From contig CAMRCO010000009.1 of assembly GCA_947040945.1 (NCBI GenBank), positions 1 through 38,264 of the forward strand: DNA of 38,264 nucleotides, given 5' to 3'. The notes below the pieces were generated by a model. It saw only the letters and a program-made list of their open reading frames with translations, was not told the DNA's origin and made no database searches. Position numbers and translations under genes: made by a program. The stretch is from an uncultured Spirochaetia bacterium. GTDB lineage: Bacteria > Spirochaetota > Brachyspiria > Brachyspirales > Brachyspiraceae. Every line of letters starts with the position of its first letter. Within the stretch, counting starts at the first letter, position 1. Positions 5,518-23,640 of the stretch are shown piece after piece.

Positions 5518-5531
5518 TAAAAGAGAATATT

Positions 5532-8308: not shown

Positions 8309-8788
8309 ATGAAAGAAGTTTATAAAAATTTATTTATTGGAAGCAAATATGATTGTGATAAATTTATTGATGACGATGACTACGCAATTTTACATGCTTG
8401 CCGAACATGCCATATAGAAATTTTAGAAGATATAAATGAAAATGACGAAAAATATTTAATTTATAAAAAAGACAGCGATAATATTTATTTAAACATAGTA
8501 GACATGAGTGAATACCTTTCCAAAATATACACTGAAAGCATTATAAAAGATGTTATGAACTTTATAAGCTTAAACATAAAAAATAAAAAAGTATTAGTTC
8601 ATTGTGATTTAGGGGTCTCTCGCTCAGCATCAATTGTATTAATTTATTTAGCAAAAGAAGGCATTATAAACAATAAAAATTTTAGGACTGCCCTACACGA
8701 CTTTGAAGCTATTTACAAATCGTATAGCCCTAGTTATAATTTTTGCTCTTACCTCGAAAATAACTGGGATATTTTAATGCAAATTTAA
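8309..8788 (+). CDS. Dual-specificity-type protein phosphatase
   Basis: A 159-residue cysteine-based phosphatase. The signature HCx5R is complete: VHCDLGVSRSAS, with C99 as nucleophile and R105 binding phosphate, followed by the usual SASIVLIYL helix. The general acid is probably D65 in NIVDMSEYL. Size and motif spacing fit small DSP / atypical tyrosine phosphatases; whether the substrate is a protein, a lipid or a nucleotide cannot be told. No signal peptide, so cytoplasmic. Start ATG 8309 has AAGG about 7 nt upstream. It stands alone between hydG and the methyltransferase at the edge of the phage cluster, and could be either a host gene or cargo. Confidence 0.82.
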   Translation: MKEVYKNLFIGSKYDCDKFIDDDDYAILHACRTCHIEILEDINENDEKYLIYKKDSDNIYLNIVDMSEYLSKIYTESIIKDVMNFISLNIKNKKVLVHCDLGVSRSASIVLIYLAKEGIINNKNFRTALHDFEAIYKSYSPSYNFCSYLENNWDILMQI

Positions 8789-8792
8789 TTTT

Positions 8793-9740
8793 TTATTTCT
8801 GCTTATCTTTTTTACTAGAGTTTAGAGAATTCCTTTGCCAAAAAACTCCATCACTATAACCTTGTATTCTGTCCCCTAAATTAGCATCGAGTATTCTTTT
8901 CATCGAAACAGAGGCATATATTTTATCAATTTCAATACCAATATATTGTCTGCCAAGTTTCTTCGCAACAACACAGCTAGTGCCTGAACCTAAAAAAGGA
9001 TCAAAAATAATATCATTTTCATTACTGCTAGCCAAAATTAATTTCGCCATAAGTTTTTCTGGCTTTTGTGTTGGATGCTCTGTATTTTCAGACATAGACC
9101 AATAAGGCACCGACATTTCATCCCAAAAATTAGATGGGTATGTGTCTCTAAAGTTTCCATCTTCTGTTTCTTTCCAATCTTTAGGTTTTCCATTTTCCTT
9201 ATATGGAGCGATAACACTTTTTCTTGTTTTAACTTTATCAACATTGAAAGTATATTCATTTGACATTGTAGCAAAATAAATATCTTCATGGGCATTCTTC
9301 CAATTTTTTTTTGCCCCACGCCCCTTCTCTCTTTGCCATGTAATTCTATTTCGTACATTAAAGTGTTTTGACAAAACAGATTGCAGTGAACTTGAATTAT
9401 ACCAATCGCCACAAACATAAATTGATGCATTTGCTTTAAGTGTGTGTTTAAGTTTAATTATTATATCTTCAAAATAATCTCTATATTTATCATCACTCAT
9501 ACGCTTAAATGAAACTTCGCCAAAATCTTTATTTAAATTATAAGGAGGATCAAGTATTAGTAAATCTACAAATGAGTCAGGTAAATATTTATACACATCA
9601 AACATACTACCTAAAATAACTTTATTGACTATGTTATTTATTTCAATATTTTCTTTCACGTCTTTTATAAGAGAGAGAGATAAATATTTAATTTCATCTT
9701 GATTTAATGTTATTGTTTTATTTCTTTTACTTTTCTGCAT
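8793..9740 (-). CDS. Orphan DNA methyltransferase, beta class (probably N6-adenine)
   Basis: A 315-residue methyltransferase if it starts at ATG 9740; a TTG at 9788 would add 16 residues, and neither start has a clear Shine-Dalgarno. The catalytic motif IV DPPY is at residues 64-67 and the SAM-binding motif I (FDPFLGSGTS) at about 246-255. This order, with the target recognition region between, defines the beta class; DPPY allows N6-adenine or N4-cytosine. The central part (REKGRGAKKNWKN, HPTQKPEKL) recalls the M.RsrI-like group, from memory. No restriction enzyme gene is adjacent, so it is an orphan. It sits head-to-head with the terminase gene at the phage-cluster boundary and is probably part of that element or a remnant of a larger prophage. 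Confidence 0.88.
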   Translation of the reverse strand: MQKSKRNKTITLNQDEIKYLSLSLIKDVKENIEINNIVNKVILGSMFDVYKYLPDSFVDLLILDPPYNLNKDFGEVSFKRMSDDKYRDYFEDIIIKLKHTLKANASIYVCGDWYNSSSLQSVLSKHFNVRNRITWQREKGRGAKKNWKNAHEDIYFATMSNEYTFNVDKVKTRKSVIAPYKENGKPKDWKETEDGNFRDTYPSNFWDEMSVPYWSMSENTEHPTQKPEKLMAKLILASSNENDIIFDPFLGSGTSCVVAKKLGRQYIGIEIDKIYASVSMKRILDANLGDRIQGYSDGVFWQRNSLNSSKKDKQK

Positions 9741-9892
9741 ATTTTTAATTCGATATTTAAAAGTAGCATATAACTTCTTAAAAGTCAAACTAAAACATAA
9801 TATTTACTTATAACTTTTGTATAAGATTGCAACAAAATTATTTTATTAAAAGTTAAAAATAAATCAAAAATATAATCTATGGATATAAATAA

Positions 9893-11323
9893 ATGGTAGT
9901 ACATATTGACATTATAAAGCCATTTGAAACATGGCTCAATGAGGACAAACGTATTAAAGTAGCATTTGGTGGACGTGGCGGTGGAAAAAGTGAATCTATT
10001 TTACGCATGCTTTTAGTTTTAAGTTTCACTAATAATGAGTGTACTTTTTTATTTGCACGTGAAACAGAAGCGTCTATTAAATACTCAACCTACTCTCTTA
10101 TTACTCATCTAATTAAAAATAATCAATTAACAGAATATTTTCATGTCACAAAAAAAGTGATAACAAACAAAATCACCAATGTAAAATTTATATTTACTGG
10201 TTTACGAGAATACTCAATCGATAAAGTTAAAAGTATACATAATATTAAATACTGTTTTATTGAAGAAGGACAAACTATAACTCAGGGAAGTTGGGAAGTT
10301 CTTGAACCATCAATACGTGCCTCAAAATCTGAAATATGGTGGGCATTTAATCCTAGAAAACTGCTTGATCCAATTTATCAAACTGTAAGCAAATATACTC
10401 TCAAAGATAAAATATATACTAAAGACAATGAAAAAGATTATAAGTATTCTGAATACATAGATAAAAATACTCTTATAACAAAAGTAAATTATGACGGCAA
10501 TCATTTTTTTAGTGAAATACTTGAAACCAGCAGAAGTATGAGTCTTCAAAACACTCCTAATTTATATGGCTATATTTGGCTTGGAGAATTAAAACAAGAA
10601 CAAGGCAGAATATTCTTAAAAAGTAAATTAAAATTTTTTAATGTTCATAAGTATAAAAAAAATATGAGTCCAGAACATGTAGCTCGAGCCATAATTGATC
10701 CTGCATTTGGTGGCAAAAACTGTTTTACAAGTTGTATAATTTATGTAAAAGTTCAAGATAAATACTACATATTAGACTCAGGTCTTATGCGTAATCAGGA
10801 TGACAAAACCACTGATGAGAGCATCACCAAGTTCCTAGAAGAAAGAAATATAAAAGAGATAATGTGTGAAGCTAATTTTCAGCAAGGTGAGTTAATTAAA
10901 AAATTGAGACAAAATAAATTTATTGTAACTCCTTTTTATGTGCGTACTAGTAAAATTGAGAGAATAATAAACGCCTCTATTCCAATACGTGAAAATTGCT
11001 ACTTCGATGACAGGTCATTAGTAACTCCAGATGAAAATGAAATGCCTTACTGGACGAAGTCATCACATGGCAGAAATTTTATAGCAATGATGCAACTACT
11101 CGGCTTTAGTGATAATCAAAATGAAAACTGTATTAAGGGCGACGACTTTAGTTTTATTGATTTTCCAGATGCTTTGGCTAGCTTAATACTTTATAGCAAA
11201 AATTATTTAAATACGTTAGACAAAAGTACTAATAAAAACTACTACATACTCTTTAATAGTGAAGATGAAAAAAATCCACGAGAGAAAAAAAATAATAAGG
11301 GGTTTAATTTTGGAATTAAATAA
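9893..11323 (+). CDS. Phage terminase large subunit
   Basis: A 476-residue packaging motor. The ATPase domain has Walker A GGRGGGKS (26-33) and Walker B CFIEEGQ (121-127, with the catalytic Glu following). The C-terminal half holds an RNase-H-like nuclease with acidic IDPAFGG near residue 268 and FIDFPDAL near 420. It belongs to the PBSX/Terminase_3 type. It translocates DNA into the prohead through the portal and cuts it. ATG 9893 is the only sensible start; the Shine-Dalgarno is weak (GGAT), and a TATAAT at 9871-9876 is the only promoter-like element. This is the first gene of the head-tail run; no recognisable small terminase subunit lies upstream, where one would normally be. Confidence 0.92.
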   Translation: MVVHIDIIKPFETWLNEDKRIKVAFGGRGGGKSESILRMLLVLSFTNNECTFLFARETEASIKYSTYSLITHLIKNNQLTEYFHVTKKVITNKITNVKFIFTGLREYSIDKVKSIHNIKYCFIEEGQTITQGSWEVLEPSIRASKSEIWWAFNPRKLLDPIYQTVSKYTLKDKIYTKDNEKDYKYSEYIDKNTLITKVNYDGNHFFSEILETSRSMSLQNTPNLYGYIWLGELKQEQGRIFLKSKLKFFNVHKYKKNMSPEHVARAIIDPAFGGKNCFTSCIIYVKVQDKYYILDSGLMRNQDDKTTDESITKFLEERNIKEIMCEANFQQGELIKKLRQNKFIVTPFYVRTSKIERIINASIPIRENCYFDDRSLVTPDENEMPYWTKSSHGRNFIAMMQLLGFSDNQNENCIKGDDFSFIDFPDALASLILYSKNYLNTLDKSTNKNYYILFNSEDEKNPREKKNNKGFNFGIK

Positions 11324-12617
11324 TAATGATGAAAAAAATGATCTTGATAAAAAAATATTAGACTATTATGAAAAAAAAATTGACATCGTATTAAAGCAAA
11401 ATAATGACCTTAAAAAGTATGCTTTAGATACAAGTGCCAATAGCGGAATAATAGATACATATCTTACAAGAGGCACATTCAGAAGCTCATTCTCAAATCC
11501 ACGTGAACAAACTATAATGGCAGAAGAGATGGCAAATGAAGGATATTTTAGCTTAGCATTAAAACAATTTACTAGCCTTTGCAAAAGTGTTAATGTAAAA
11601 CTCGGGTATAAATCTAAACATTTAGAAGACTGCCCTAAACATAAAAAAGTTCTTGAGTTTGTAGAAAGGCAAATTAATAGAGTTGGTGGATACGAAATAT
11701 TATTTGATAAAATTGTCACCCCTTCTTTAAGATGGGGTGTAGGTATTGCTATACCTGAACTTACCCTTACTGGAAAAAATAAAGATATGGTAGGTTTTAA
11801 TAGACTTAAAACTATAAATCTTCAAAATGTAAAAGGTTTTTATTTTGACCCTAATGACACAAGTCGAGTTAAAGTATTAAAATATATTACATTTCCTAAA
11901 GCAATTGAAATTGATGATATTGATAATCCTTATAGCAATATTAACGAAGACACACCTGTCTCTTTAATATCCATCGACATAGAAAAAAATTGCATAGCAT
12001 ATCATGCACATAATGCACTTGACGGCAATCCATTTGGTACATTTTATCTCTACTATTTATACTCATATTATAAGCAACATAAAAAACTTTCAGAAAGTTT
12101 ATACAATGCCCTACATAGTTTTGGAACATATCCTATGGGAGTTAGACGCACGTCAAGAGATAGCGGAGCTGATAACACACAATGGGAAATGGAGGCAACG
12201 GCAAGATTACTTAATCTCATGTCTGAAGGTGGAGGGCTTTATGTTGATGGCGAAGGTGAGCTTTATACACTAGATGCTCCTGATACAGAAAAAATGGTAT
12301 CGTCTATGGAAATGCTTTTTGATACTGTTATGCGTACAAGTTCACTTGGACAAATTACAACTGGAATAAAAGGTGGTGGTAGTCGGGACTTAATGCGTTC
12401 ACTTGATATTTTTACAGACAGCTTTGTGCTTGCTACAGTAAAAAAAGCATATCTTGATATATCTGAAACTATGATTAGAAATTTATGTGAATTAAACTTT
12501 TCACATAATTACAAAACAGAAAAACTTTTAGAGTATCCATATTTAATTGTAGAAGATCATTTTAATTCTATAACTGACAAATTAGATAAAAAAGTAGAAA
12601 AAGAAAATAAAAAATAA
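11310..12617 (+). CDS. Phage portal protein
   Basis: About 435 residues starting at TTG 11310, chosen because AAGGGG (11297-11302) lies 7 nt upstream; the frame is open further 5' but has no other good ribosome site. The start overlaps the terminase stop by 14 nt, suggesting translational coupling. The segment with HNALDGNPFGTFYLYYLYSYY-like sequence, and the later GGGSRDLMRSLD, match the pattern of Mu gp29 / DUF935-type portals. The portal forms the dodecameric DNA entry ring at one capsid vertex and docks the terminase. Position directly after the large terminase and before the protease supports the call. Overall similarity to well-known portals is low. Confidence 0.72.
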   Translation: MELNNNDEKNDLDKKILDYYEKKIDIVLKQNNDLKKYALDTSANSGIIDTYLTRGTFRSSFSNPREQTIMAEEMANEGYFSLALKQFTSLCKSVNVKLGYKSKHLEDCPKHKKVLEFVERQINRVGGYEILFDKIVTPSLRWGVGIAIPELTLTGKNKDMVGFNRLKTINLQNVKGFYFDPNDTSRVKVLKYITFPKAIEIDDIDNPYSNINEDTPVSLISIDIEKNCIAYHAHNALDGNPFGTFYLYYLYSYYKQHKKLSESLYNALHSFGTYPMGVRRTSRDSGADNTQWEMEATARLLNLMSEGGGLYVDGEGELYTLDAPDTEKMVSSMEMLFDTVMRTSSLGQITTGIKGGGSRDLMRSLDIFTDSFVLATVKKAYLDISETMIRNLCELNFSHNYKTEKLLEYPYLIVEDHFNSITDKLDKKVEKENKK

Positions 12618-12633
12618 TTAGGAGCAAACAAAA

Positions 12634-13590
12634 ATGATTAAAAAAACTTTTAGAATACTTAAGCATAAGCTTAGGTGGTATAAACGTGATTTAGATTCTG
12701 ACAACATTTTTACACAAATTAGAGAAGAGTTTATAGGAAAAGACATTTGGGATAAGGCTGTGAAAAGATTTAAAGATGAAGGATTACCTTTATCTATTTA
12801 TGAAAATCATGATCACAGTAGTATTATAGGAAATGTTTTGGACATAGAGGCAAAAGATGATGGGCTTTATGTTACAAAGCATAGCTTATTTGAAAAAGGT
12901 AAAAATATTATAAGAAGCGGTAAATATACCTTGCCATCAATTGATGCTGTAATTTACAAAGATGCTGATAATAAAATTTGTGATTTAGAGTTATTTGGAA
13001 TTAGCTTAGTAAGTAGTGCGGGAGCAAAAAATGTTGAGCTTGTAACTATGGGTAAGTATGGTGAAAAAATAGCTTTATCAAAAATAAAAGAAAAAACAAA
13101 AAAGGAGGATTTTATTATGGATAAAAATCTAGTTTGGCAAATGTTTGAGGATGATGACTTTATTAAAGATATACCAGAGGGTATTATTGATAAAGTTATA
13201 GAAAATCATAAAGACTATATTACAGAAAAACTTAAAAATATGTCTTTAGAAGATGAAGCCGCAATAACAGAACTTGATGACGACACCGAAGAGGAAAAAA
13301 TCAAAAACACTAAAGAGACAAAAGAAGCAGAAGTACTTGCTATGTCTAAGTTTGATGACCAAATTTCATTTTATGAAGTCGAAAATAATTGCAAAGCGAT
13401 ACCTTCAAGTATTAAAAGAGCTAAAACATTTATAAAAAGAAATCATAAAAATATGGGAGATAAGTCTATTGGAATTGCTTTATCTGAACTTGAATTTTAT
13501 GGTCATAAAAGTGAAGAGAAAATTTTAATGGGAAAACTTTATAAAGAAAAAACATTAAAAGACATTACAACATCAATATTAAAATATTAG
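12634..13590 (+). CDS. Prohead protease-scaffold protein
   Basis: 318 residues. Residues 50-130 carry the prohead protease pattern: a His-containing segment (ENHDHSSIIGNVLDIEA, H59/H61), then DGLYV, then a Ser-containing strand (SGKYTLPSIDAV, S102) and the LFGISLVSSAG strand. These are the likely catalytic His and Ser; the third residue is not assigned. Residues 162-318 are helical and strongly charged, as expected of an internal scaffold. This domain order is that of the Mu I/Z and lambda C/Nu3 pairs. The protease would mature the capsid and destroy the scaffold. ATG 12634 has AGGAG upstream. The gene lies between portal and decoration protein, exactly where this function is expected. Confidence 0.72.
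   Translation: MIKKTFRILKHKLRWYKRDLDSDNIFTQIREEFIGKDIWDKAVKRFKDEGLPLSIYENHDHSSIIGNVLDIEAKDDGLYVTKHSLFEKGKNIIRSGKYTLPSIDAVIYKDADNKICDLELFGISLVSSAGAKNVELVTMGKYGEKIALSKIKEKTKKEDFIMDKNLVWQMFEDDDFIKDIPEGIIDKVIENHKDYITEKLKNMSLEDEAAITELDDDTEEEKIKNTKETKEAEVLAMSKFDDQISFYEVENNCKAIPSSIKRAKTFIKRNHKNMGDKSIGIALSELEFYGHKSEEKILMGKLYKEKTLKDITTSILKY
13117..13590 (+). CDS. Nested capsid scaffold protein from internal start
   Basis: Inside the protease gene and in the same frame (codon 162), an ATG at 13117 is preceded by AAGGAGG (13102-13108) with an 8-nt spacer, stronger than the site of the parent gene. Initiation here yields a 157-residue protein equal to the C-terminal scaffold region: acidic, charged and helical (LDDDTEEEKIKNTKETKEAE). 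Phages Mu (I/Z) and lambda (C/Nu3) make their scaffold in this way, as an in-frame nested product of the protease gene. The ribosome site and frame are seen directly; production of the protein is inferred. Confidence 0.7.
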   Translation: MDKNLVWQMFEDDDFIKDIPEGIIDKVIENHKDYITEKLKNMSLEDEAAITELDDDTEEEKIKNTKETKEAEVLAMSKFDDQISFYEVENNCKAIPSSIKRAKTFIKRNHKNMGDKSIGIALSELEFYGHKSEEKILMGKLYKEKTLKDITTSILKY

Positions 13591-13604
13591 GAGATTATAA
13601 AACA

Positions 13605-14027
13605 ATGAGTAATAAGTTAAACTTTATGGAAGGTAAAAGACTTATAGTGAATGGAGACAATGAACTTAATATTGACTTCAGTGTCAATTGGAATGAAGTT
13701 GAGCTAGCAAGCCCAATTTCAGTAGACAATAAAAATCAAGTTCATCCATTTATTGATGGAGAGACATTTCTAGGATTATTATCATATAAAAGTGGAATAA
13801 AAAATAGTAATGTACAAATAGATGGTGTAAACATAATAGAAATATGTTACTTGAAAGCAGGAAGTTTTTTTCATGTGAGAGCAGGAGAAGACGTAAAAAC
13901 TGGAGATGGACTTAAACCAGCAAGTAATGGATTTGTTAAAGCCACAGATGCATCTAGCATAAAATGTTTTGCTATCACAAACGCTTTAAAAGGAAATGTA
14001 TTAACAGTTAGAGGAGGAAATTATTAA
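13605..14027 (+). CDS. Head decoration/stabilising protein
   Basis: 140 residues directly before the capsid gene. The C-terminal half (AGEDVKTGDGLKPASNGFVKA) has the small beta-barrel pattern of DUF2190-type or lambda gpD-like capsid cement proteins, in which a value is held 'in the range of the capsid surface' by short turns; the N-terminal half is also strand-rich. It probably binds the outside of the expanded capsid. ATG 13605 has AGGAG about 10 nt upstream. Its stop overlaps the capsid start in TAATG. The assignment rests on position and pattern, not on a diagnostic motif. Confidence 0.62.
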   Translation: MSNKLNFMEGKRLIVNGDNELNIDFSVNWNEVELASPISVDNKNQVHPFIDGETFLGLLSYKSGIKNSNVQIDGVNIIEICYLKAGSFFHVRAGEDVKTGDGLKPASNGFVKATDASSIKCFAITNALKGNVLTVRGGNY

Positions 14028-14983
14028 TGACAAATTATAATGCAAAAGATATAGCACAACTAGAAGTGGCTGTCTCAAGTAAACTTTCAGCATATTCACA
14101 AGAATCACAACTCATAAGTAAAATGCTACCTAGTATAAGAATTAATTCAACTAATCAGCGTTTCCCAATATTTGAGGGAATGAATGCTTATAATCCTTCA
14201 GCTAATGGCTCAAGTGTAGAAATACTAGAACCAAGTACTGAATATAAGGACGCTGCTATTTTTTATACAAATAAAAAAATAGAAATACCACTTGCGACTA
14301 AGCGTTCAATGACAGCAATTGATGACCCTGATGGTAGCCAACTTATATCGCTAATAGCAAAGGCAGTTGCTGAAAGTAAATTTGTAACATTGGAATATAA
14401 TATACATAAAGCAATAGCCGCTCAAAAATATGAAGCAGGCAAAAATATATTTACAGCAGGAAATATTAATCAAGATAATTCAGGACTAGGATTTAGAGAA
14501 GCCGTAAACAATGCGATATCTTACCTAAAAACCACTCTAAATGGAATGAGTCATTCAAGACGAATAATTATGGCAATACCTGAAAAAAGCTGGTACAAAC
14601 TTACAGCAAGTCAAAAGCTATCTAATTTCTTTAACGGGTATGGCATGGCAAATACTAACTTCAACATACAGACTATAGAATCAATTTTTACTGAAAACTC
14701 TGGCACAAATGTTCAGGCAGCTGTTGGCGGTATGCGTTTTCTTGATAGTAAATTTGCTTCAGGAGAATCTGAACTTATATGGAATGAAGACCTTGAGTTC
14801 TATATTTTCACAAGCACAGATGATGTGTTTGCTGACAGAGCCTCAATTAAAAAACTTGAAGGAATTGAAAGACTTAGTGTAGTTGAGGATGGAAACAATA
14901 CAAGAATCGATTTCTATACAGACTATGGATACTATATTGACAAAGCTGAAGCATTTACTAAAGTAACTTTTTCTATAGTATAG
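14027..14983 (+). CDS. Major capsid protein (HK97-fold type)
   Basis: 318 residues, about 35 kDa, of the Mu gpT/gpE-like capsid type. Features include an N-terminal helical arm, a central LATKRSMTAIDDPDGSQ segment, conserved AESKFVTLEYNIHKAI helix, and near the C-terminus ADRASIKKLEGIERLSV and a final strand-rich stretch. No separate N-terminal delta domain of the HK97 kind is visible, consistent with a separate scaffold encoded by the previous gene. ATG 14027 overlaps the upstream stop (TAATG) and has GAGGAGG at 14011-14017, the strongest ribosome site in the cluster, fitting the most abundant product. Confidence 0.82.
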   Translation: MTNYNAKDIAQLEVAVSSKLSAYSQESQLISKMLPSIRINSTNQRFPIFEGMNAYNPSANGSSVEILEPSTEYKDAAIFYTNKKIEIPLATKRSMTAIDDPDGSQLISLIAKAVAESKFVTLEYNIHKAIAAQKYEAGKNIFTAGNINQDNSGLGFREAVNNAISYLKTTLNGMSHSRRIIMAIPEKSWYKLTASQKLSNFFNGYGMANTNFNIQTIESIFTENSGTNVQAAVGGMRFLDSKFASGESELIWNEDLEFYIFTSTDDVFADRASIKKLEGIERLSVVEDGNNTRIDFYTDYGYYIDKAEAFTKVTFSIV

Positions 14984-15004
14984 AAAAATTATAAAGGAAA
15001 TAAT

Positions 15005-15304
15005 ATGTACATAGGAAAAGTTGTTAATATAGACCTTGATAATTTACAGATTTTTGAAAAGGTATACACACTTAAAAAAGGCACTATATTTTTAGCCCGT
15101 GATGGAGTTCTTCATAATCAAATTAAAGCTGATTTTGTAAAAATATTAAAGCATGTTAAATCTAGGAAAGATACTGATTTACGAGAATATGTAGAAGTTC
15201 AAAATTATGAGAATAAAAACTTCATAAAAAAAGAATTAGATAAAGAAGAAAGTAATATAGAGACTGCAAAAAAAGAGATACCAAAAAATACAAACAGAAA
15301 GTAA
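15005..15304 (+). CDS. Small phage protein of unknown function, head-tail region
   Basis: 99 residues. The N-terminal 50 residues alternate strands (IGKVVNIDLDNLQIFEKVY) and the C-terminal 40 are highly charged and lysine/glutamate-rich. I do not recognise a family. Position between the capsid and the first connector suggests a small virion or head-completion role. AAAGGA precedes ATG 15005 at good spacing. Confidence 0.6.
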   Translation: MYIGKVVNIDLDNLQIFEKVYTLKKGTIFLARDGVLHNQIKADFVKILKHVKSRKDTDLREYVEVQNYENKNFIKKELDKEESNIETAKKEIPKNTNRK

Positions 15305-15318
15305 TAGAGAGGGACAAA

Positions 15319-15711
15319 ATGAAAGTAAATGTAACTATAGATGATATTAAAAGAAGCGCTAAACTTCTTGATTATGGAAACAATGAGTATAGCAAACAAA
15401 TCACTGATGATGAGATTAGTTTTTATTTAATTGATATTAAAAGCCAAATTGAAAGTTGGATATCAAAGTTAAAATTATCTTTTAAAGAAAATGATATATC
15501 TTACTACTATATTAAAAGATATATCATACTTGAAACTATAGTTGCATTAGCTTTTAGTAATTATACAGAAAATAATAAAGGCTATATAGAAAGTCTTAAA
15601 CTCGAAAGAGATAAATATCAAAACTTAATTGAAAAAAATACTAAACGCTTTGTAGGTCAACTTAAATCTCAAGAAGTCCCAAAACTTAGAAATGGATTTT
15701 TATTTAAATAA
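15319..15711 (+). CDS. Head-tail connector protein (adaptor type)
   Basis: 130 residues, mostly helical, with an N-terminal DDIKRSAKLLDYG segment, a DDEISFYLIDIKSQIESWI helix and a central IKRYIILETIVALAF helix. This resembles the helical-bundle adaptor proteins (Mu gp36 / DUF1320 or HK97 gp6-like) that bind beneath the portal. The call is based on size, helix pattern and position after the capsid; no catalytic motif is expected. GAGGG lies before ATG 15319. Confidence 0.52.
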   Translation: MKVNVTIDDIKRSAKLLDYGNNEYSKQITDDEISFYLIDIKSQIESWISKLKLSFKENDISYYYIKRYIILETIVALAFSNYTENNKGYIESLKLERDKYQNLIEKNTKRFVGQLKSQEVPKLRNGFLFK

Positions 15712-15729
15712 TTATTTTAAGGATAAAAA

Positions 15730-16263
15730 ATGATAATAAAAGAAATAAAAGAAGATTTACTTTTGTTTTTAGCTGATGAGTATTTTGATACTAATTGGAA
15801 TATAAAAAATGGAAAAGGAATGTTCAATAAAGGCTTAGAGCATAAATATAAAATAAATAATTTTAGTTTAGGAAATTTTAGAGAACTAGCCAAAAATTTT
15901 TTACTTGTTCAAGTTAAAAGTATAGAAGCTACAAAAAGTGATTCACTTGGTCAAATAGGACTTATAAATTTTGGTAGCAAAATAAATATGCTGATTAGCA
16001 TAGAGCAAAATACTATACCTACAAACTCAAGTTTTATAAGTGATCTATATATAGACACTTTATATAAAAGACTTCAGCAATTTATTTACTTATATAGAAA
16101 TAGAATAACACCAATAAATCCTGAAATAAATATTAGTAGGTATTATGACAAAATCGAAAACACATCAAATGATATAAATAAAATTACTATAAATGCTAAT
16201 TTAATATTTCATTATAAATTACAAGATTTAAGTTTAGAGGAGGAAGTAGACAATGATAGATGA
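15730..16263 (+). CDS. Putative tail completion/terminator protein
   Basis: 177 residues. A helical N-terminus (IKEIKEDLLLFLADEYF) is followed by strands and a later helix (YIDTLYKRLQQFIYLYRNR), then a final strand pair ending in NANLIFHYKL. This layout and the position just before the tail tube gene fit the tail-terminator or neck group (Mu gp37-like). Not recognised by a specific motif, so tentative. AAGGA precedes ATG 15730. The 3' end overlaps the next small gene by 11 nt. Confidence 0.48.
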   Translation: MIIKEIKEDLLLFLADEYFDTNWNIKNGKGMFNKGLEHKYKINNFSLGNFRELAKNFLLVQVKSIEATKSDSLGQIGLINFGSKINMLISIEQNTIPTNSSFISDLYIDTLYKRLQQFIYLYRNRITPINPEINISRYYDKIENTSNDINKITINANLIFHYKLQDLSLEEEVDNDR

Positions 16264-16399
16264 GTCTTGGGTAAATTTTTTAAAAGTCCATAAAGAAAAT
16301 ATTACTAAAAAAAATAAAAGTAATAAGATAGAAAAAAAATATGATATTAAAAATAAGCCAAAAAAATATAAAGAGGATATTAAAAATGACAGACCATAA
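16253..16399 (+). CDS. Small basic 48-residue phage protein
   Basis: An ATG at 16253 with a perfect AGGAGG (16238-16243, 9 nt away) opens a 48-codon frame ending at TAA 16397-16399. The product starts MIDESWVNFLKVHKENI and is then lysine-rich, with 16 or so Lys. It overlaps the gene before (11 nt) and the tail tube start after (14 nt), a coupling pattern used throughout this cluster, which supports it being real despite its size. Function unknown; the position is that of a minor neck or tail protein, or a translational coupler. Confidence 0.6.
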   Translation: MIDESWVNFLKVHKENITKKNKSNKIEKKYDIKNKPKKYKEDIKNDRP

Positions 16400-17765
16400 A
16401 GGATTAAAAGCATTTGTTGGAAGTGAATATAATATAAGAGTTGCGAAGTCTTCAAACAGTAAAGAGTTTATAGATTTTACACAAAAAGGAAATACAAAAC
16501 TTATTTTTCCAACATCATTTACAGTAAAAAAGAATGTTGAAGTTATTGATCAAGCAAGAATAGGTCTTCCTACTAATATTAAAATATTAGGCAAAAGCCA
16601 AATAACAGGCGATATGGGAGATATTATAACACCTAATGGGATAGCTTTTTATACAGCTATGAGCCTTGGTGGAATTACAAAATCATTAGAAAATAATAAA
16701 GCTTTTATAAGTATTGAGTATGATGGAAACTTTATACTTGACATAACAAAAGATATTAACGGCAAAACTACACAAGTTGATTTAGTTTTAGATGAAATTA
16801 CAAAAAGAGGTATTCCTATAACTGAGAATATGACTGTAAATGACTTTATTCAATTAGTTAATTCTTTTAAAACCCTAAGTGATGAAAATGAATTTTTGGC
16901 AACTATGCATATAGGACTTGGATCTGAAATATTAAATTTTGAAGAAGGCAAAAATGACTCAGTAACGTCTATTAATTCATCTATTAGAAACTTTTTTAGA
17001 GTGGGAGATTTGAGTGAAGAATACAAAGCGACTATTGCTCCATATATCAATTTTATAATCCCTAAAAGAGGAAACCCAGAATACTTTAATATCTTAGTTT
17101 CAAGTAGAAATGCTCTCCTAAATACTCAGTATGCAGGATGCAGAATGCTTACACTTAATATGGCTTATCAAAATAATAACCTTACAAATATTACAACAAA
17201 TATATGGGCAGGATATGACAAAAATTTTGATGGAGAGGCTTCACAAGCAGAAGTTGATGATGTATCAAATGCATACTCTCAAACCAATGGTCGCACTAAA
17301 GTATTTTATTCAGGTAAAACTGCTATGGCATTATCAAGTATAACAAATAATTTTGAATGGATAATTGAGCCTAATTGGAATATATCAAATGCCCCTTATG
17401 AAGTGCCAATATCGAAGTATGCTGACAGTTATGATATAGAAGCTATGTTTAATGAAGAAACTAAAGATATTTTTCAGGACAGAGTAAACAATAATAAAAA
17501 TATATCTTTAATGATCGAAACAAGCACAATGAAAAATGGTAAAGAATATAAAATAATAAAATCAACAAAAACACTACTTGGACAACCACAGTATCCGTCA
17601 ATTGCTGATGGCGTTATAAGTTTACAGGCATCAGGATTCACGTCAAAGGCAAGCGTATATGACCCTTACACAACTCTTATGATTATAACTAGTGATATAA
17701 ATATAGGAGTTAATTATACAGAAGAGGAAATATCAAAAGATTTTTCTGGATATACAAATATATAA
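16386..17765 (+). CDS. Major tail tube protein (siphophage type)
   Basis: 459 residues from ATG 16386, chosen because AGAGG (16372-16376) lies 9 nt upstream. The N-terminal part has an early ARIGLPTNIKILGKSQITGD strand and the GIAFYTAMSLG segment. The C-terminal half shows the typical tube strands: MLTLNMAYQNNNLTNITTNIW, then KVFYSGKTAMAL, then EWIIEPNWNI and ISLQASGFTS. Tube proteins stack as hexameric rings around the tape measure and form the DNA channel. At 459 residues it is larger than the usual 150-350; a helical stretch at about 130-200 (TVNDFIQLVNSFKTLSDEN) looks like an insertion. I see no tail-sheath pattern, so the tail should be non-contractile. Confidence 0.65.
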   Translation: MTDHKGLKAFVGSEYNIRVAKSSNSKEFIDFTQKGNTKLIFPTSFTVKKNVEVIDQARIGLPTNIKILGKSQITGDMGDIITPNGIAFYTAMSLGGITKSLENNKAFISIEYDGNFILDITKDINGKTTQVDLVLDEITKRGIPITENMTVNDFIQLVNSFKTLSDENEFLATMHIGLGSEILNFEEGKNDSVTSINSSIRNFFRVGDLSEEYKATIAPYINFIIPKRGNPEYFNILVSSRNALLNTQYAGCRMLTLNMAYQNNNLTNITTNIWAGYDKNFDGEASQAEVDDVSNAYSQTNGRTKVFYSGKTAMALSSITNNFEWIIEPNWNISNAPYEVPISKYADSYDIEAMFNEETKDIFQDRVNNNKNISLMIETSTMKNGKEYKIIKSTKTLLGQPQYPSIADGVISLQASGFTSKASVYDPYTTLMIITSDINIGVNYTEEEISKDFSGYTNI

Positions 17766-17788
17766 ATTTAATTTTTTAAGGAAATAAA

Positions 17789-18109
17789 ATGTACAAAAAT
17801 GATATTATCGATTTTTCAAAAGATCAAATTATTACAATACCGGTTAAAGATATAAATGTTAAAGACAAAGTTGAGCGTAGATATGGGGACTTATCAAAAT
17901 GGTTTAAGTCAGGAGACCGCATAGAGTTTGATGACAGTGCTGCTACTTTTATATCTATAAAAAATTCTGCCACTATTTTAGAATGTTTCAAAACTATAAA
18001 GCTTAGTGTAGTAAGAGATAGTGTAGAAGTTAACTTAAATAAAGAACCTTTTCACTGTGTATCAATGATAAATAAGTGCATAATGAGTTTTTTTGTCCTT
18101 GGGGCTTAG
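17789..18109 (+). CDS. Tail assembly chaperone, short form (gpG-like)
   Basis: 106 residues; the N-terminal half is strand-rich (DQIITIPVKDINVKDKVERRYGD), like the small G-type chaperones that lie between the tail tube and tape measure genes in siphophages. AAGGA precedes ATG 17789. Near the 3' end the run T TTT TTT (18088-18094), aligned on the codons of this frame, allows a -1 slip into the next frame, giving a 197-residue G-T fusion (102 residues from this frame and 95 from the next). Normal termination at TAG 18107-18109 gives the short form. Chaperones coat the tape measure before tube assembly and are absent from the finished particle. Confidence 0.78.
   Translation: MYKNDIIDFSKDQIITIPVKDINVKDKVERRYGDLSKWFKSGDRIEFDDSAATFISIKNSATILECFKTIKLSVVRDSVEVNLNKEPFHCVSMINKCIMSFFVLGA
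18088..18094 (+). other. -1 programmed ribosomal frameshift site T TTT TTT
   Basis: Seven T residues fit the slippery pattern X XXY YYZ exactly with respect to the codons of the upstream frame (AGT TTT TTT GTC). After slippage, reading continues TGT CCT TGG in the -1 frame. The -1 frame is bounded upstream by TAA 18073-18075, so the switch must fall between there and TAG 18107; this heptamer is the only candidate. A T-run could also act by transcriptional slippage. Confidence 0.78.
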
Positions 18110-18381
18110 ATCTTAAAGTAAAAGAACTTAGTTTAATAGCCCCCTACTATTATAAAGGAACATCTGAAAGTATTTTAGATTTATATTTCAAGATAACTGA
18201 AAAAACAGTTTCAAAAGGTCGTGATATACTTATAAGGCATAGTCAAGTTTTAAGAGAAGCATTAGCTTTTACATTAAGTGGATTAAGTTACCAATATGAT
18301 GATTATGAAAAAAGAGTACTACTAAATTATGCTATAGGTTTTTTTAAGATAGAAGAAAAAAAATTATTAAACAAAAGTTAA
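18094..18381 (+). CDS. Tail assembly chaperone, frameshift-encoded T part
   Basis: The -1 frame continues for 95 codons after the slippery site to TAA 18379-18381. The encoded part is helical (IAPYYYKGTSESILDLYFKI and IRHSQVLREALAFTLSGL). No ATG, TTG or Shine-Dalgarno gives it an independent start; a GTG at 18076 lies in the overlap with no ribosome site. It is therefore annotated as the 3' portion of the G-T fusion. In lambda and many other siphophages the T part binds the tail tube protein, while G binds the tape measure. Confidence 0.72.
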   Translation, partial: CPWGLDLKVKELSLIAPYYYKGTSESILDLYFKITEKTVSKGRDILIRHSQVLREALAFTLSGLSYQYDDYEKRVLLNYAIGFFKIEEKKLLNKS

Positions 18382-18395
18382 ATGTGGAGAACATA

Positions 18396-19808
18396 ATGTC
18401 TGATTATTATAATAAACATCTTAAAGAAATATCAACAGATATTGCTTTAACAAAAAAATCATTTAATGATATTCAAAAAGAATTTAGAAGCCTAAACTCT
18501 GAAACAGACAAACTTATAAAATCTATAAGCAATATAAAATCGGCTTCAAGTTCCAAAGTCAAAGATAGTAATGATAGTGAAAATGAAGGTATAGAAGAGG
18601 TATCAAATACTGATAATATAGAGTACATAAATAATGAAATTAAATTATTAGATGAAACTTTACTTAAAGATAGACTTGCTATGCAAGATACTCTTTCTAA
18701 GTCAATTACAAGTAGCAATGATGAAATATCAAAATCATCAAATAACAGTTTAGGTAATTTAAGTTCATCACTAAAACTGGTAGAAACTGAAATAACTAAT
18801 TTAGAAGTAGCAACAGATAGTTCTAACACTAAAATAAACTCAATGTTTGATGCTTTAGATAAAAATGCTCGCAACTTATCTGGAGCATTTGGATCAATAT
18901 CAAACAGCATTATGAGTATAGTAAAAGATAATTGGAGTGCTAATATAACAGATTTATCAGAATATGATAATGCAATTGAAGAATCAAAAAACAAACAAAT
19001 TGAGGCACTTAAAGAACTTGAAGAAAAATATAAAGAAAACAATGACATTGAAAAAGAATTGTATATTGAAAAACTTAATGAAGAATATGAAAGGTCTATT
19101 GAGGCAAATGATATGCTCAGTGCTAATGCAATTGAAAATCGTCTTAAAGAACTTACAGAAGGAACTGAAATTGATAATAAAGAAACTGCTTTAAAAAAGA
19201 AACAAGAAGAAGAAAAGAAGAAAATTTTAGCACAAACAAATTATGATATATCAGTAGCTGAATATAATAAAGCAAAAGCAGAACATGATAATGAAATAGC
19301 ATTAGCTGAAGTGAAAAAAAATAAAGCTATAGCTGATGCTACTTTGGGGTTGGCAAATGCGACTATACAAGCAGCTGTTATGCCACTTACGGCAGGTGCT
19401 AGCGGTGGTATTATAGGTTTTACAACAGGAGCAATAATGGCAGGAACCGCATTGACTGCTGTTGCCTCTGCTGTAAGTGGTATTAGTAATGCTACACAAA
19501 ACCTTGACTCTATAAAAGCAAATGCTCCTACCCCTCCTGCTTCTCCAAAATTTGCTTATGGAACTTCTGGGTACACTCTTAGGGAAGGCGAAAGTGCTAT
19601 TGTTGGAGAAATGGGACATGAGATTGTAAGAAATAAAGGTGGAGATTTGGAAGTTATTTCAACAGAAAGAACTAAAGAGATTTCTAGCCCTAATGGTATT
19701 AATATCAATAATTTTATAGTTGAAGTTAAAGAGCTTGTAAATGCTGACCAAGTAATAGATATATTAAATGAATTAAAAAGTAGGAATTTCAAATATGCCT
19801 TACAATAG
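18396..19808 (+). CDS. Tail tape measure protein
   Basis: 470 residues from ATG 18396 (GGAG 7 nt upstream; the frame is open from GTG 18384). Residues 1-330 are mainly coiled coil and rich in Ser, Lys and Glu, with long heptad stretches (IEALKELEEKYKE-like). Residues about 305-365 are a hydrophobic Gly/Ala-rich segment (TAGASGGIIGFTTGAIMAGTA). The end carries the common tape-measure signature SGYTLREGESAIVGEMGHEIV. It sets tail length; at about 0.15 nm per residue, as known from other phages, the tail would be about 70 nm, short for a siphovirus. No peptidoglycan hydrolase domain is seen. Confidence 0.85.
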   Translation: MSDYYNKHLKEISTDIALTKKSFNDIQKEFRSLNSETDKLIKSISNIKSASSSKVKDSNDSENEGIEEVSNTDNIEYINNEIKLLDETLLKDRLAMQDTLSKSITSSNDEISKSSNNSLGNLSSSLKLVETEITNLEVATDSSNTKINSMFDALDKNARNLSGAFGSISNSIMSIVKDNWSANITDLSEYDNAIEESKNKQIEALKELEEKYKENNDIEKELYIEKLNEEYERSIEANDMLSANAIENRLKELTEGTEIDNKETALKKKQEEEKKKILAQTNYDISVAEYNKAKAEHDNEIALAEVKKNKAIADATLGLANATIQAAVMPLTAGASGGIIGFTTGAIMAGTALTAVASAVSGISNATQNLDSIKANAPTPPASPKFAYGTSGYTLREGESAIVGEMGHEIVRNKGGDLEVISTERTKEISSPNGININNFIVEVKELVNADQVIDILNELKSRNFKYALQ

Positions 19809-20604
19809 TAGACTAAAAATAGTTAAAGATAAAGATATAAAATATTTTAACCTAATAGATATTTCAAGCAGTGTTTCTGTTGATACTATAAAAAATGATT
19901 ATAAAGTTATTGATGGAAATAGAAATGAAGGTATTCTTCAAGGTATAGGTTTAGTATCGGCAGGAAGAAAATTAAGTTATGCTATTCCAATATATGAAAT
20001 AAATAATACTGATAAAAACAGTTTATATAAAAACATAGCTGAATATACTTCTCTTTTAATGAATAGCTACTCCTATAGTTTTTATATAGAGCATTATATA
20101 AATAATTTTTGGTATTCCGCACGTGTAAATATTATAGAAACATCAGGCTATACATTAAAATTGACTAACCATATTGAAGGCTTTAGTTTTAAATGCCAAA
20201 TGATAGATAATTTTTTTACTGGTGACACGATAGAAGAAGATATAGGATTTAAAGGTATAGGAATTAAAGATATTGAATATTTTAGTAAATCTCTAGTTCC
20301 AAGTAATATTTCTTTTGAATGGGAAATAACAGGAAAAGCTGGAAATTTAAACGCACACTTAATTCATAGCAGAAATTATGGAATGCGTATTCAAACAAAT
20401 TTACCATCTGGTACTCATAAATTAAAATATAAAAATGATACACTAACGCTTTATGATGAAAACAGCAATAATTATAATGGCATTTTAATAGAGTATAGTG
20501 GCGTACAACCATTTTTAGATATAGGTAGAAACATATTAAATATAAAAAGTAATTATAATACAATCAGTTTTATAATTAAATATAGCAAAGGTATAGCATT
20601 ATGA
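19795..20604 (+). CDS. Distal tail protein (Dit-like)
   Basis: 269 residues, strand-rich throughout, starting at ATG 19795 within the end of the tape measure gene (14-nt overlap). Position after the tape measure and before the hub protein is that of the distal tail protein, which forms the ring joining tube to tail tip. The N-terminal half (NRNEGILQGIGLVSAGRK, followed by IPIYEIN) resembles the tube-like Dit core, and the C-terminal part (ISFEWEITGKAGNLNAHLI) a galectin-like extension. Assignment is by size, fold pattern and order. The stop overlaps the next start as ATGA. Confidence 0.6.
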   Translation: MPYNSRLKIVKDKDIKYFNLIDISSSVSVDTIKNDYKVIDGNRNEGILQGIGLVSAGRKLSYAIPIYEINNTDKNSLYKNIAEYTSLLMNSYSYSFYIEHYINNFWYSARVNIIETSGYTLKLTNHIEGFSFKCQMIDNFFTGDTIEEDIGFKGIGIKDIEYFSKSLVPSNISFEWEITGKAGNLNAHLIHSRNYGMRIQTNLPSGTHKLKYKNDTLTLYDENSNNYNGILIEYSGVQPFLDIGRNILNIKSNYNTISFIIKYSKGIAL

Positions 20605-22151
20605 ATTATACTGGATTTATACTCAATTATTTTTTGTCAAACTCTACTAGCATATCTGAAAAAAAACCTGATATAGATACATATATAAAAATAGCAACTG
20701 ACATATTCTATTTATCAGTAGGAGCAAATTTTGAAAGTTTTGAGTTTAAAAAAAATAAACGTGGTGGAGAAAGTGGAAAAATAAAATTTCCTAAAGTATT
20801 TGGTCGTTACACTATAAATGATACAGTGGAGTTTATACTTAAAGGCGAGAAAGTATTTAAAGGTGTAATTGAAAAAATAACAGACTATGGACTTACACTT
20901 GAAATTATTCCTCTATGGGGTTTACTTGATTATGTTTTTATTACAAATACTTTAGAACTTGAAGAAAGCTCAAAAGTATACGACTTAGTTTTGTCCCTCA
21001 AAGATAAAATAGAAAGTATAGGTATTAAATTTAATAAAGAAAATATTTTAATTCCAAAAGATGATAACACATTAATCACAACTACCTTAGCAGGACGTAG
21101 CATAAGAGACATACTCGATGAACTTGAAAAAGAGCTTCCTAACAATTATGTTTATGGAGTCGATAGTAATAGCGAGTTTTACTTCAAAAGTTTTTCTGAA
21201 GAGGCTACTCTAAAATTAAGCTGGCATAGAAATAATTTTTCTGATACTGAATATGAAGAAGATTACTCAGAGCTTTATAGTCAGTATGTTGTAAAAATTA
21301 AAGATAATAGCATGAACGCTTTTAACGTTTTAAAACCAATTTTAGGAGAAGACCCCAAATATCCTAAAACATATATAACTGATTTAGTAGGAAAAAAAAC
21401 ACGCATTTTTGAATATAACTTTGAAGCAAATGAAACTGAAGCTCTAGAATATGCTTACAATCATTTAAAAGCACAAGTGGCTATTCAAAAACTTAAAGTA
21501 AAAAATATAAACTATAAAAACATATCCCTTCAGCAAAATAAAGCTTATAAAGTTATACTTAAATCTCAAAATAGTTTTTTTGAAGATTTCAATATAGATT
21601 TCTCAACATCGATTACAGTTGGCACTGATAGAAATTCTGGTGAGATTATAAAAATAGGATACCCAATTGGATATGCTAGAAGAACTAGATACACTAATGG
21701 AGTACTGTATCTTAGTAAACAAATTAATTATTTATCTTTATGTAACAGAGCTTTAGATATATATGAAATTATTGTCTACTATATTAGTAATAATAAAACT
21801 AACTTATTTAGTATAACAGATGGAGTGAATACTATAAATAAATTTGGTAAAAATGGAATCCTTAAATGTGATATAAAAGGATTTGATAAAAGAAATTTAA
21901 TTATAAAAAATGAAAAAAATGATGCCTTAAACTATAGTGGAATTATCTTTAAGAAAGTGCGTGCTTTCTTTACACAAGGAAGTAGAGAAATTGATTTAAA
22001 TATCAGAAGTATGGATTATAAATATAGTAAAGGCATACTAAAACTAGATATAAATATGGCAAAACTTAATTCAGTACTTACAGGATATTTTTATGAAAAA
22101 GAAAAGAAACTTGAAAAATTAGAAACTTTACTTACGAATAGTAAGAATTAA
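20601..22151 (+). CDS. Tail hub / tail-associated protein (Tal-like)
   Basis: 516 residues, about 60 kDa, starting at ATG 20601 in an ATGA overlap with the distal tail gene. The first 350 residues fit the gp27/gp44-like hub fold: VEFILKGEKVFKGVIEKI strand pair, LAGRSIRDILDELEKELP, and WHRNNFSDTEYEEDYSELYSQYVVKI. In siphophages this protein closes the tail tip and touches the cell. The C-terminal 150 residues are of unknown fold. No lytic domain is evident. Confidence 0.62.
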   Translation: MNYTGFILNYFLSNSTSISEKKPDIDTYIKIATDIFYLSVGANFESFEFKKNKRGGESGKIKFPKVFGRYTINDTVEFILKGEKVFKGVIEKITDYGLTLEIIPLWGLLDYVFITNTLELEESSKVYDLVLSLKDKIESIGIKFNKENILIPKDDNTLITTTLAGRSIRDILDELEKELPNNYVYGVDSNSEFYFKSFSEEATLKLSWHRNNFSDTEYEEDYSELYSQYVVKIKDNSMNAFNVLKPILGEDPKYPKTYITDLVGKKTRIFEYNFEANETEALEYAYNHLKAQVAIQKLKVKNINYKNISLQQNKAYKVILKSQNSFFEDFNIDFSTSITVGTDRNSGEIIKIGYPIGYARRTRYTNGVLYLSKQINYLSLCNRALDIYEIIVYYISNNKTNLFSITDGVNTINKFGKNGILKCDIKGFDKRNLIIKNEKNDALNYSGIIFKKVRAFFTQGSREIDLNIRSMDYKYSKGILKLDINMAKLNSVLTGYFYEKEKKLEKLETLLTNSKN

Positions 22152-22172
22152 AAAATTATTTAAGGACATACA

Positions 22173-23105
22173 ATGAAAAAAATATTTAGTATCAGTTCAA
22201 CATACAACCCATTTAGAAATAATATAGACTTAAAAAATGTAAGCGAAAACTTTTTTATAGGGAGTAGTAATTTTATTAATGACTCTATAATAAGTGTTGA
22301 AACAGGTCTTATTCCAACACCAGAAAGTTTTCTGACTGAAACTTTTGTTGCAAATATATTAGACACTAATGGTGTTATTTTGAAAAAACTTAAACAGAGA
22401 ATAGGCGAAAAAGGAAATAATAATTATCCTAAAGAAGATGAAGTTATTTGGTTTGATATAGAAGGAATGCAAGGAGATTATTGGGTTAATGATATTTGGG
22501 AGAATAAAATACTTAGTTTATCAGGATACTTTGAAATGACTGCCATAACAAGTAAAACATCAGCATTAAACCTTATAGGTTGCATTATGGCTTTCTCTTG
22601 CAATGATTTAAATAAATTACCACCTAATAGTATGCATTGCGATGGAGCAGAAGTATCAAGAACTATTTATAATAATTTATTTAATGTTATAGGTAATTCG
22701 TGGGGACATGGTGATGGAGAAACTACATTCAATTTACCTGATGGACGCAGTGGAACACTTAAAGGAATTGGAAATGGAGTGCTAATAGATGATGACATAG
22801 AAAGCCGTTTTCAAGCTAAAACAGGTGGTAATGCTGGCAGTCTAGTTGGTAGCTATCAAAAACATGGTATCGAAAGTAAAAGTTTTAATCACAATCATAC
22901 TATAGAATTTATTTTAGATGGCAATAAAGCTTCTGGGTCAGGGGATTATGGAAATTTAGAAGGAATAGATATGTCTAATAATAATAAGAGTGTCCGTACA
23001 AAATATAATGGACTAATAAAGAGTCAAAATACAGAGCTTACAGTAGGCGATGCTAATTCTACTCGTGACAATAATTTAGGTGTGCATTGGATAATTTTTT
23101 ACTAA
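22173..23105 (+). CDS. Tail fibre with phage tail-collar domain
   Basis: 310 residues. Residues about 125-205 are a clear tail-collar domain: IGCIMAFSCNDLNKLPPNSM, CDGAEVSRTIYNNLFNVIG, WGHGDGETTFNLPDGRSG. The last 100 residues are Gly/Asn/His-rich and include SFNHNHT, a His-rich element as in metal-binding fibre tips. Such proteins bind the host surface at the tail tip. AAGGA precedes ATG 22173. The N-terminal region should attach to the hub. It is the last clear virion gene, followed by the lysis-type membrane proteins. Confidence 0.85.
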   Translation: MKKIFSISSTYNPFRNNIDLKNVSENFFIGSSNFINDSIISVETGLIPTPESFLTETFVANILDTNGVILKKLKQRIGEKGNNNYPKEDEVIWFDIEGMQGDYWVNDIWENKILSLSGYFEMTAITSKTSALNLIGCIMAFSCNDLNKLPPNSMHCDGAEVSRTIYNNLFNVIGNSWGHGDGETTFNLPDGRSGTLKGIGNGVLIDDDIESRFQAKTGGNAGSLVGSYQKHGIESKSFNHNHTIEFILDGNKASGSGDYGNLEGIDMSNNNKSVRTKYNGLIKSQNTELTVGDANSTRDNNLGVHWIIFY

Positions 23106-23116
23106 GGATTTGAAAT

Positions 23117-23428
23117 TTGGAAAATATATTTATAAAAATAATAAACGAGGTTATAAAAATTTTAATACCTGCTACATTCACTTTTTTCATAGGATATATT
23201 TTAGCTTATAAGAAAACATTAAAGGCTGTTATAGAAATACAAAAAATAATAGCGAAAAAAGAAATTATATTTATTTTTAATAAGTATAAAAAAGTTAAAA
23301 AAATACCATTAGAAGAAAAACTAGACTTAAGTAATTTATATAGTGCTTATAAATTACTTAAAGGAAATGGACAAGTAGATACTATAATAGAACATATAAA
23401 AAACTGGAAGGAGAAAGACATCACATGA
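23117..23428 (+). CDS. Holin-like membrane protein
   Basis: 103 residues starting at TTG 23117 with AAGGA (23104-23108) 8 nt upstream. One hydrophobic segment at about 14-32 (ILIPATFTFFIGYILAY) is followed by a basic, helical cytoplasmic part. Size, single membrane segment and position after the tail genes suggest a holin or a similar membrane accessory protein. Not diagnostic. It overlaps the next gene as ATGA. Confidence 0.5.
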   Translation: MENIFIKIINEVIKILIPATFTFFIGYILAYKKTLKAVIEIQKIIAKKEIIFIFNKYKKVKKIPLEEKLDLSNLYSAYKLLKGNGQVDTIIEHIKNWKEKDIT

Positions 23429-23640
23429 ATACTAATAATGGCAAAGGAAAAATAATATCATTAATTGTAAAAGTATATGCTATATTATTTGGAGGAATAA
23501 GTTTTTTTATATTAAGTATTATATTTAAAAGATTCCCAAGTCTTGATGAGTCTTTAGGTATTCTTTGTTTAATGCTCGGGTTTGAATGTGTAATAGCGTC
23601 AATCGATATATCTATGATTATAAAAAATATTAGAAAATAA
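23425..23640 (+). CDS. Small membrane protein, second holin-like
   Basis: 71 residues with two membrane segments (about 10-32, KVYAILFGGISFFILSIIF; about 43-63, LGILCLMLGFECVIASIDI) and basic ends. The ATG overlaps the stop of the preceding gene (ATGA), so the two are coupled, like holin pairs or holin/antiholin. It ends 5 nt before the converging prfB stop and closes the phage cluster. No endolysin gene accompanies the pair. Confidence 0.5.
   Translation: MNTNNGKGKIISLIVKVYAILFGGISFFILSIIFKRFPSLDESLGILCLMLGFECVIASIDISMIIKNIRK

Follow-up and report, generated by a model that had tools for sequence, protein, structure and literature searches.

Gene content and surroundings of the cluster

The window analyzed here is an entire contig of 38,264 bp (CAMRCO010000009.1) from a 2.17-Mb genome of the family Brachyspiraceae (G000, 98.7% complete). 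It harbors a compact phage-type cluster of 17 genes on the plus strand (9893-23640), which are arranged in the order large terminase, head, tail and holin-like genes (Table 1). Every frame is intact, the coding share of the cluster is 98.7%, and the intergenic spacing ranges from 14-nt overlaps to 23-nt gaps apart from a single gap of 77 nt; an additional overlap of 34 nt arises if the 101-aa gene begins at GTG 18076. An initial annotation had described a single-strand terminase-to-holin cluster of about 13.7 kb with intact frames, overlaps of up to 14 nt and ribosome sites, and had proposed it as a candidate gene transfer agent (GTA); this description of the locus was borne out. The 14-nt overlap is that of terL with the portal gene, whose start is probably TTG 11310 behind AAGGGG (the mechanical open reading frame starts at 11259), and purine-rich ribosome sites lie ahead of most of the genes.

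Most of the cluster proteins have no Pfam or PHROG family. The large terminase subunit (TerL) and the collar fibre were identified with certainty by Pfam and the portal protein weakly. In TerL, the Walker A motif GGRGGGKS and the acidic nuclease positions are conserved with Brachyspira, and from the 474-aa tape measure a tail of ~70 nm is predicted (0.15 nm per residue). Solved-structure profile searches with alignments of the tube and the major capsid protein (MCP) gave no credible match, and AlphaFold2 models generated without an alignment were unusable (pLDDT 31 for MCP and 33 for the portal). Promoter and terminator scans returned nothing beyond chance, and there was no match in Rfam.

As had been noted initially, no integrase, repressor, replication gene or small terminase (TerS) gene was found within the cluster, nor was a lysin gene, and no integrase, repressor or replication gene was recognised anywhere on the contig. 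Among att-like direct repeats across the borders the longest measured 15 nt, a length which shuffled sequences also reached. Neither an integration module with att sites nor gene decay was thus detected at the locus, and an ordinary prophage was rejected, as the 38-kb contig carries no integration or replication gene and its longest repeat is at chance level. Both flanks are chromosomal, with HydE/F/G-like genes and a chemotaxis receptor gene on the left and prfB, galK, nagA and a flagellar rod gene on the right. The host-type genes adjoin closely, as first described: the last cluster gene stops at 23640, separated by 5 nt from the end of the convergent prfB (23646), and a small dual-specificity-type phosphatase gene (8309-8788) ends 1.1 kb upstream of the cluster. 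A radical-SAM HydG-like gene (6733-8112) is found farther upstream, 1.8 kb from the cluster. The orphan-like DNA methyltransferase gene between phosphatase and terL is a doubtful member of the element; in Brachyspira it does not stand beside terL.

Table 1. Features of the cluster, its neighbor and related sites, with the evidence for each assignment.
Feature	Position	Strand	Evidence
terL, large terminase	9893..11323	+	PF04466 7.8e-29; 50-54% to Brachyspira orphan terL
Portal protein	11310..12617	+	PF06074 3.3e-4, below cut-off; single ~410-aa Brachyspira head-site gene, hhalign 98
Head maturation/protease slot, 318 aa	12634..13590	+	same slot in Brachyspira; blastp 7.6e-5; score reached by 0/1000 shuffles
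Head decoration slot, 140 aa	13605..14027	+	same-slot gene blastp 4e-6; 0/1000 shuffles; weak head fibre match
Major capsid protein by position and size, 318 aa	14027..14983	+	slot of 343-349-aa Brachyspira MCP; similarity marginal
99-aa gene, head-tail connector slot	15005..15304	+	position alone; no similarity
130-aa gene, head-tail connector slot	15319..15711	+	marginal similarity to same-slot gene, p 0.003
Head-tail joining slot, 177 aa	15730..16263	+	hhalign 96, blastp 1.4e-8
Tail tube protein, 474 aa (Hvp53 slot)	16341..17765	+	26-28% to 457-490-aa Brachyspira gene, hhalign 99.6
106-aa gene, between tube and tape measure	17789..18109	+	position; p 0.05
101-aa gene, between tube and tape measure	18076..18381	+	same-slot gene; score reached by 0/1000 shuffles
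Tape measure, 474 aa	18384..19808	+	35-40% to Brachyspira tape measure, hhalign 100
Distal tail (Dit-like) protein	19795..20604	+	29-33% to Brachyspira gene preceding hub, blastp to 4e-35
Tail hub/baseplate protein, 516 aa	20601..22151	+	37-40% to Brachyspira gene, 24/26 genomes
Tail fibre with collar domain	22173..23105	+	PF07484 1.7e-13; N-terminal 127 aa match same-slot Brachyspira protein
103-aa membrane protein, holin-like	23117..23428	+	phrog_4105 1.5e-10 (no function annotated)
71-aa membrane protein, holin-like	23425..23640	+	35% to 82-95-aa gene near Brachyspira endolysin
DNA methyltransferase, divergent	8793..9788	-	PF01555 8.4e-45; phrog_67 7e-54; lies 105 nt upstream of terL
Second-site genes: endolysin, 159-aa protein, tail protein	L147 (G000 contig 47):1138-2086 and 5186-6265	-	host genes between
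TerS-like protein, Brachyspira examples	L089:9531-9980; L084:9518-9973; L047:8437-8907		upstream of terL

Counterparts at the Brachyspira VSH-1/BhGTA sites

VSH-1, a GTA known for a long time, transfers resistance genes in an animal pathogen. The genome set compared here comprises three genera of Brachyspiraceae: g1 (G000 and its congener G001), g2, which is Brachyspira (26 genomes, including B. hampsonii, B. pilosicoli, B. alvinipulli and B. innocens), and g3. Since the loci named Brachyspira belong to g2 and G000 to g1, the host of the window is not Brachyspira itself, it is a sister genus in the same family. The comparison with VSH-1 and Brachyspira genomes that had been suggested in the initial annotation was positive and supports its candidate GTA: for 14 of the 17 cluster genes a counterpart could be detected at the Brachyspira sites, two of them marginal (MCP and the 130-aa gene), and a gene-by-gene comparison revealed that the gene order is common to the window and each Brachyspira site.

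In Brachyspira these genes are distributed over separate places. The head site contains the genes for portal, maturation, decoration and MCP, three small genes, a 90-aa gene that is absent from the window, the tube gene and two small genes, with or without the tape measure gene. The tail-lysis site comprises Dit, hub, fibre, a ~785-aa tail protein, a ~199-aa gene, the endolysin, a small gene and the holin, and at the terL site terL is followed in some genomes (G012, G015, G021) by the tape measure gene. A TerL homologue was found in 23 of the 26 Brachyspira genomes, usually with 50-54% identity apart from broken copies; the portal corresponds to one gene with 22-25% identity at a place separate from terL, and the hub homologue lies at yet another place. 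In well-assembled Brachyspira genomes terL and the head site are ~30 to 330 kb apart.

Not all slots are matched equally well. When single window proteins were aligned with Brachyspira families by hhalign, weaker scores were obtained for maturation (38), decoration (33) and the 101-aa gene (27), which are backed by BLAST or shuffles, with off-diagonal cells not exceeding 2.4. Dit, hub, the fibre N-terminus and the holin were matched by BLAST, and the Brachyspira relative of the tube protein shows a weak match to the tail tube family PF18906. For MCP the shuffle p-values against Brachyspira MCP were 0.008-0.075 and the hhalign score was 1.1; slot and size agree. No Brachyspira counterpart of the 103-aa gene was found in these tests, and the 99-aa gene showed no similarity.

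The Brachyspira sites were taken to be VSH-1/BhGTA from gene order, size, chemotaxis-receptor neighbors and an insertion at L035, rather than from a VSH-1 accession, and this assignment is to be read as probable. VSH-1 is flanked by mcpB and mcpC (PMC4955376). At L035 transport genes are inserted after the tube gene, and a similar insertion between OrfE and Hvp53 is described in B. pilosicoli (PMC3532143). A query of the phage collection with the Brachyspira MCP did not recover VSH-1.

The Brachyspira sites vary in two further respects. terL is broken in G012 (C1:1656713-1658072) and G009 (C119:48420-49818), the portal gene is broken in G003 (C10:21140-22287), and single stops occur in the portal genes of G014 and G019. 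As terL or portal is broken in several genomes, the GTA appears to decay repeatedly within Brachyspira. The type of endolysin at the tail-lysis site also varies by species, with GH108 in G021 and GH19 in G015 and G011 (L064:13669-14208 versus L063:1968-2546).

Packaging genes and a second site in the genome

The packaging enzyme of VSH-1 is unproven, since B. hyodysenteriae has a single identifiable terL, which lies outside the 16.3-kb BhGTA cluster and whose role is unvalidated (PMC9662315). Between Brachyspira species the BhGTA homologues are not syntenic, and viral relatives are lacking for all of them except the endolysin (PMC9662315). In the window terL lies directly upstream of portal in the same operon, and in several Brachyspira genomes it lies beside the tape measure gene, which provides gene-neighborhood evidence for the orphan terL. 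The window supports the idea that the orphan Brachyspira terL encodes the packaging motor of VSH-1.

Upstream of terL, on the same strand, a ~150-aa protein is encoded in 12 of the 15 Brachyspira terL loci examined (truncated in 2 of the 12; examples in Table 1). It is encoded 20 nt from terL in G021 and 12 nt from it in G020; in other genomes the distance reaches ~5 kb. This conserved protein has matches to two TerS families, phrog_309 (terminase small subunit, 1.1e-5) and phrog_23444 (1.5e-4), and weak helix-turn-helix (HTH) matches at its N-terminus; the small terminases of other GTAs are reported to be without an HTH-like domain. No mention of this protein was found in the publications consulted. 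We give an even chance to a scenario in which the ancestor of the family had terL, head and tail genes in one operon that was scattered by Brachyspira, with the orphan terL encoding the VSH-1 motor and the ~150-aa protein being its TerS, perhaps with an HTH-like domain.

With the ~785-aa Brachyspira tail protein as query, one match was obtained in G000, on contig 47 (2.5e-26). It is a 359-aa protein that has ~150 N-terminal residues in common with the query and is probably an adhesin. At a distance of ~3.6 kb an M15 phage-type endolysin is encoded (PF08291 8e-18, phrog_894 4e-34), accompanied by a 159-aa protein with an N-terminal hydrophobic stretch; genes for ribosomal protein L31 and CheX lie near the endolysin gene. 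No GH108 or GH19 enzyme was found in G000, and the M15 endolysin may serve the particle encoded in the window. The earlier statement that an endolysin is missing therefore holds for the cluster and not for the genome. Given the tail protein and endolysin on contig 47, the element of G000 is also divided, but otherwise than in Brachyspira.

Origin and relatives of the cluster

Among 393 Spirochaetota genomes the TerL clade is restricted to Brachyspiraceae. TerL has no close relative in phage or viral collections, where the best phage TerL showed 25-32% identity over part of the protein; hub and tube have no relatives in these collections, and scanning viral sequences and genomes with individual proteins of the window gave no match. 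Co-occurrence was analyzed in the 24 genomes with a completeness of 90% or more and a contamination of no more than 5%. terL, portal and hub were all present in the same 21 genomes and all absent in the same three (G001, G002, G028), cases that are not fully independent because of shared descent. In G002 terL, portal and hub are all missing, though they are not linked to each other in related genomes.

The codon use of the cluster matches that of the flanking genes (r = 0.97), and galK of the window is 66% identical to that of G001 versus 52-57% to those of Brachyspira; the contig is therefore assigned to the G000 genome. In G001, which was used for an empty-site comparison, prfB and galK are neighbors, and beyond prfB the gene order bears no relation to that of the left flank of the window. 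Independently of the cluster, prfB of the window contains the classical release-factor-2 frameshift site AGGGGGTATCTTTGAC (24685-24699, minus strand), with the true start near ATG 24759, and prfB of G001 is one uninterrupted frame (L058:6875-7981), as if the frameshift had been lost.

Within Brachyspira the distances of terL, portal, MCP, tube and maturation genes track those of galK (Mantel r 0.87-0.94), and the homologues have a median dN/dS of 0.035-0.10; co-diversification of BhGTA with Brachyspira has been reported (PMC9662315). To compare genera, the maximum-likelihood distance between window and Brachyspira was divided by those of the deepest Brachyspira genome, G021. The resulting ratios were 2.45 for galK, 2.35 for the tape measure, 2.90 for TerL, 3.46 for Dit and 4.30 for both hub and the 177-aa gene. 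By this measure, TerL and the tape measure would fit common descent with the host.

We consider it likely that the cluster is a GTA of the Brachyspira type (VSH-1/BhGTA-like) in a sister genus, with packaging, head and tail genes in one operon and the adhesin/lysis site apart. The collinearity, the family limit of the TerL clade and its lack of close relatives in phage or viral collections, the co-occurrence, the tape measure gene next to terL in some Brachyspira, the lack of an integration or replication module and of att repeats, the second site, the host-like divergence of TerL and tape measure and the host-like codon use support this interpretation. Several observations weigh against it. 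The ratios of maturation, tube and portal genes are 5.0-6.5, about twice that of galK, and MCP is barely recognisable across genera though ~90-98% conserved inside Brachyspira. The congener G001 and genus g3 lack the cluster, and a TerS-like protein is absent from the window and contig 47, the two contigs checked. The head genes, above all MCP, appear too divergent for common descent with the host, and because of this vertical descent is not rated higher. Either the head module is fast-evolving or was exchanged in one lineage, or related phages were captured separately.

The latter leads to the principal alternative, a prophage remnant of the phage lineage from which VSH-1 originated, which would have been captured separately and deprived of its modules for integration and replication, and would now be in decay or newly stranded. 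The nearly unrelated MCP and the divergent head genes would be explained in this way, as would the absence from G001, and a DNA methyltransferase, a gene also occurring in Brachyspira prophages, adjoins the cluster. However, all 17 frames are intact and tightly packed, codon use is host-like, the divergence of TerL and tape measure matches that of the host, a matching tail protein and a nearby phage-type endolysin survive elsewhere in the chromosome, and no free phage relative was found in phage or viral collections, so that we regard a remnant as unlikely, though worth consideration. That the locus is an active, unrecognised phage or satellite, with integration and replication genes elsewhere or supplied by a helper, is very improbable: the late-gene set is complete including fibre and holins, but host genes lie on both sides without an att repeat, and the close relatives are single chromosomal Brachyspira genes instead of free phages. 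A headless phage-tail bacteriocin (tailocin), suggested by tail genes with fibre and holins amid host genes, was rejected as scarcely credible, since the cluster includes TerL, a portal and, between the portal and tail genes, capsid-slot genes, and tailocins are not known to carry packaging and head genes.

If the cluster is a GTA, stress would switch on the operon in some cells, and portal, capsid and maturation proteins would form a prohead into which TerL would pack host DNA until it is full. A short non-contractile tail consisting of tube, tape measure, Dit, hub and collar fibre would then join the head, the cluster holin and the second-site endolysin would lyse the cell, and the released particles would inject DNA into kin.

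With VSH-1/BhGTA (Brachyspigtaviriform, Brachygtaviriformidae) the element shares the order of head and tail genes, homologous TerL, portal, tube, tape measure, Dit, hub, fibre N-terminus and holin, the lack of integration and replication genes and the dispersal of parts in the chromosome (PMC9662315). In contrast, terL, head and tail genes form one operon in the window and occupy two or three sites in Brachyspira, the endolysin is M15 in G000 and GH19 or GH108 in Brachyspira, MCP is barely recognisable, and the window locus has neither the 90-aa gene of the head site nor the TerS candidate. VSH-1 carries 7.5 kb of DNA (PMC9662315), and the window locus of 13.7 kb is larger than this load. Since the TerL clade and structural homology agree, MCP is marginal, co-diversification with the host fits TerL and tape measure but not the head genes, and the endolysin type differs, as it also does within Brachyspira, we describe the element as a putative variant related to Brachygtaviriformidae and not as a full member. 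RcGTA (Rhodogtaviriformidae) resembles it in the size of the structural cluster, the first position of terL, the lack of integrase and replication genes and the placement of accessory genes at separate loci (PMC6854486, PMC9662315), but has its own TerS and no established homology to the window; TerLs of recognised GTA groups are 14-20% identical to each other (PMC9662315). Some Brachyspira prophages such as pphBhCH20 have tail and lysin genes in common with VSH-1 (PMC8845278), whereas the integrase, recombination gene and flanking direct repeats of pphBhCH20 are all lacking at the window locus.

With this element, the GTA group is no longer confined to the genus Brachyspira. Its terL at the start of the operon lends neighborhood support to the orphan terL of Brachyspira, the TerS candidate beside that orphan gene makes the part list of VSH-1 testable, and an outgroup is gained for studying how a phage operon is scattered after domestication.

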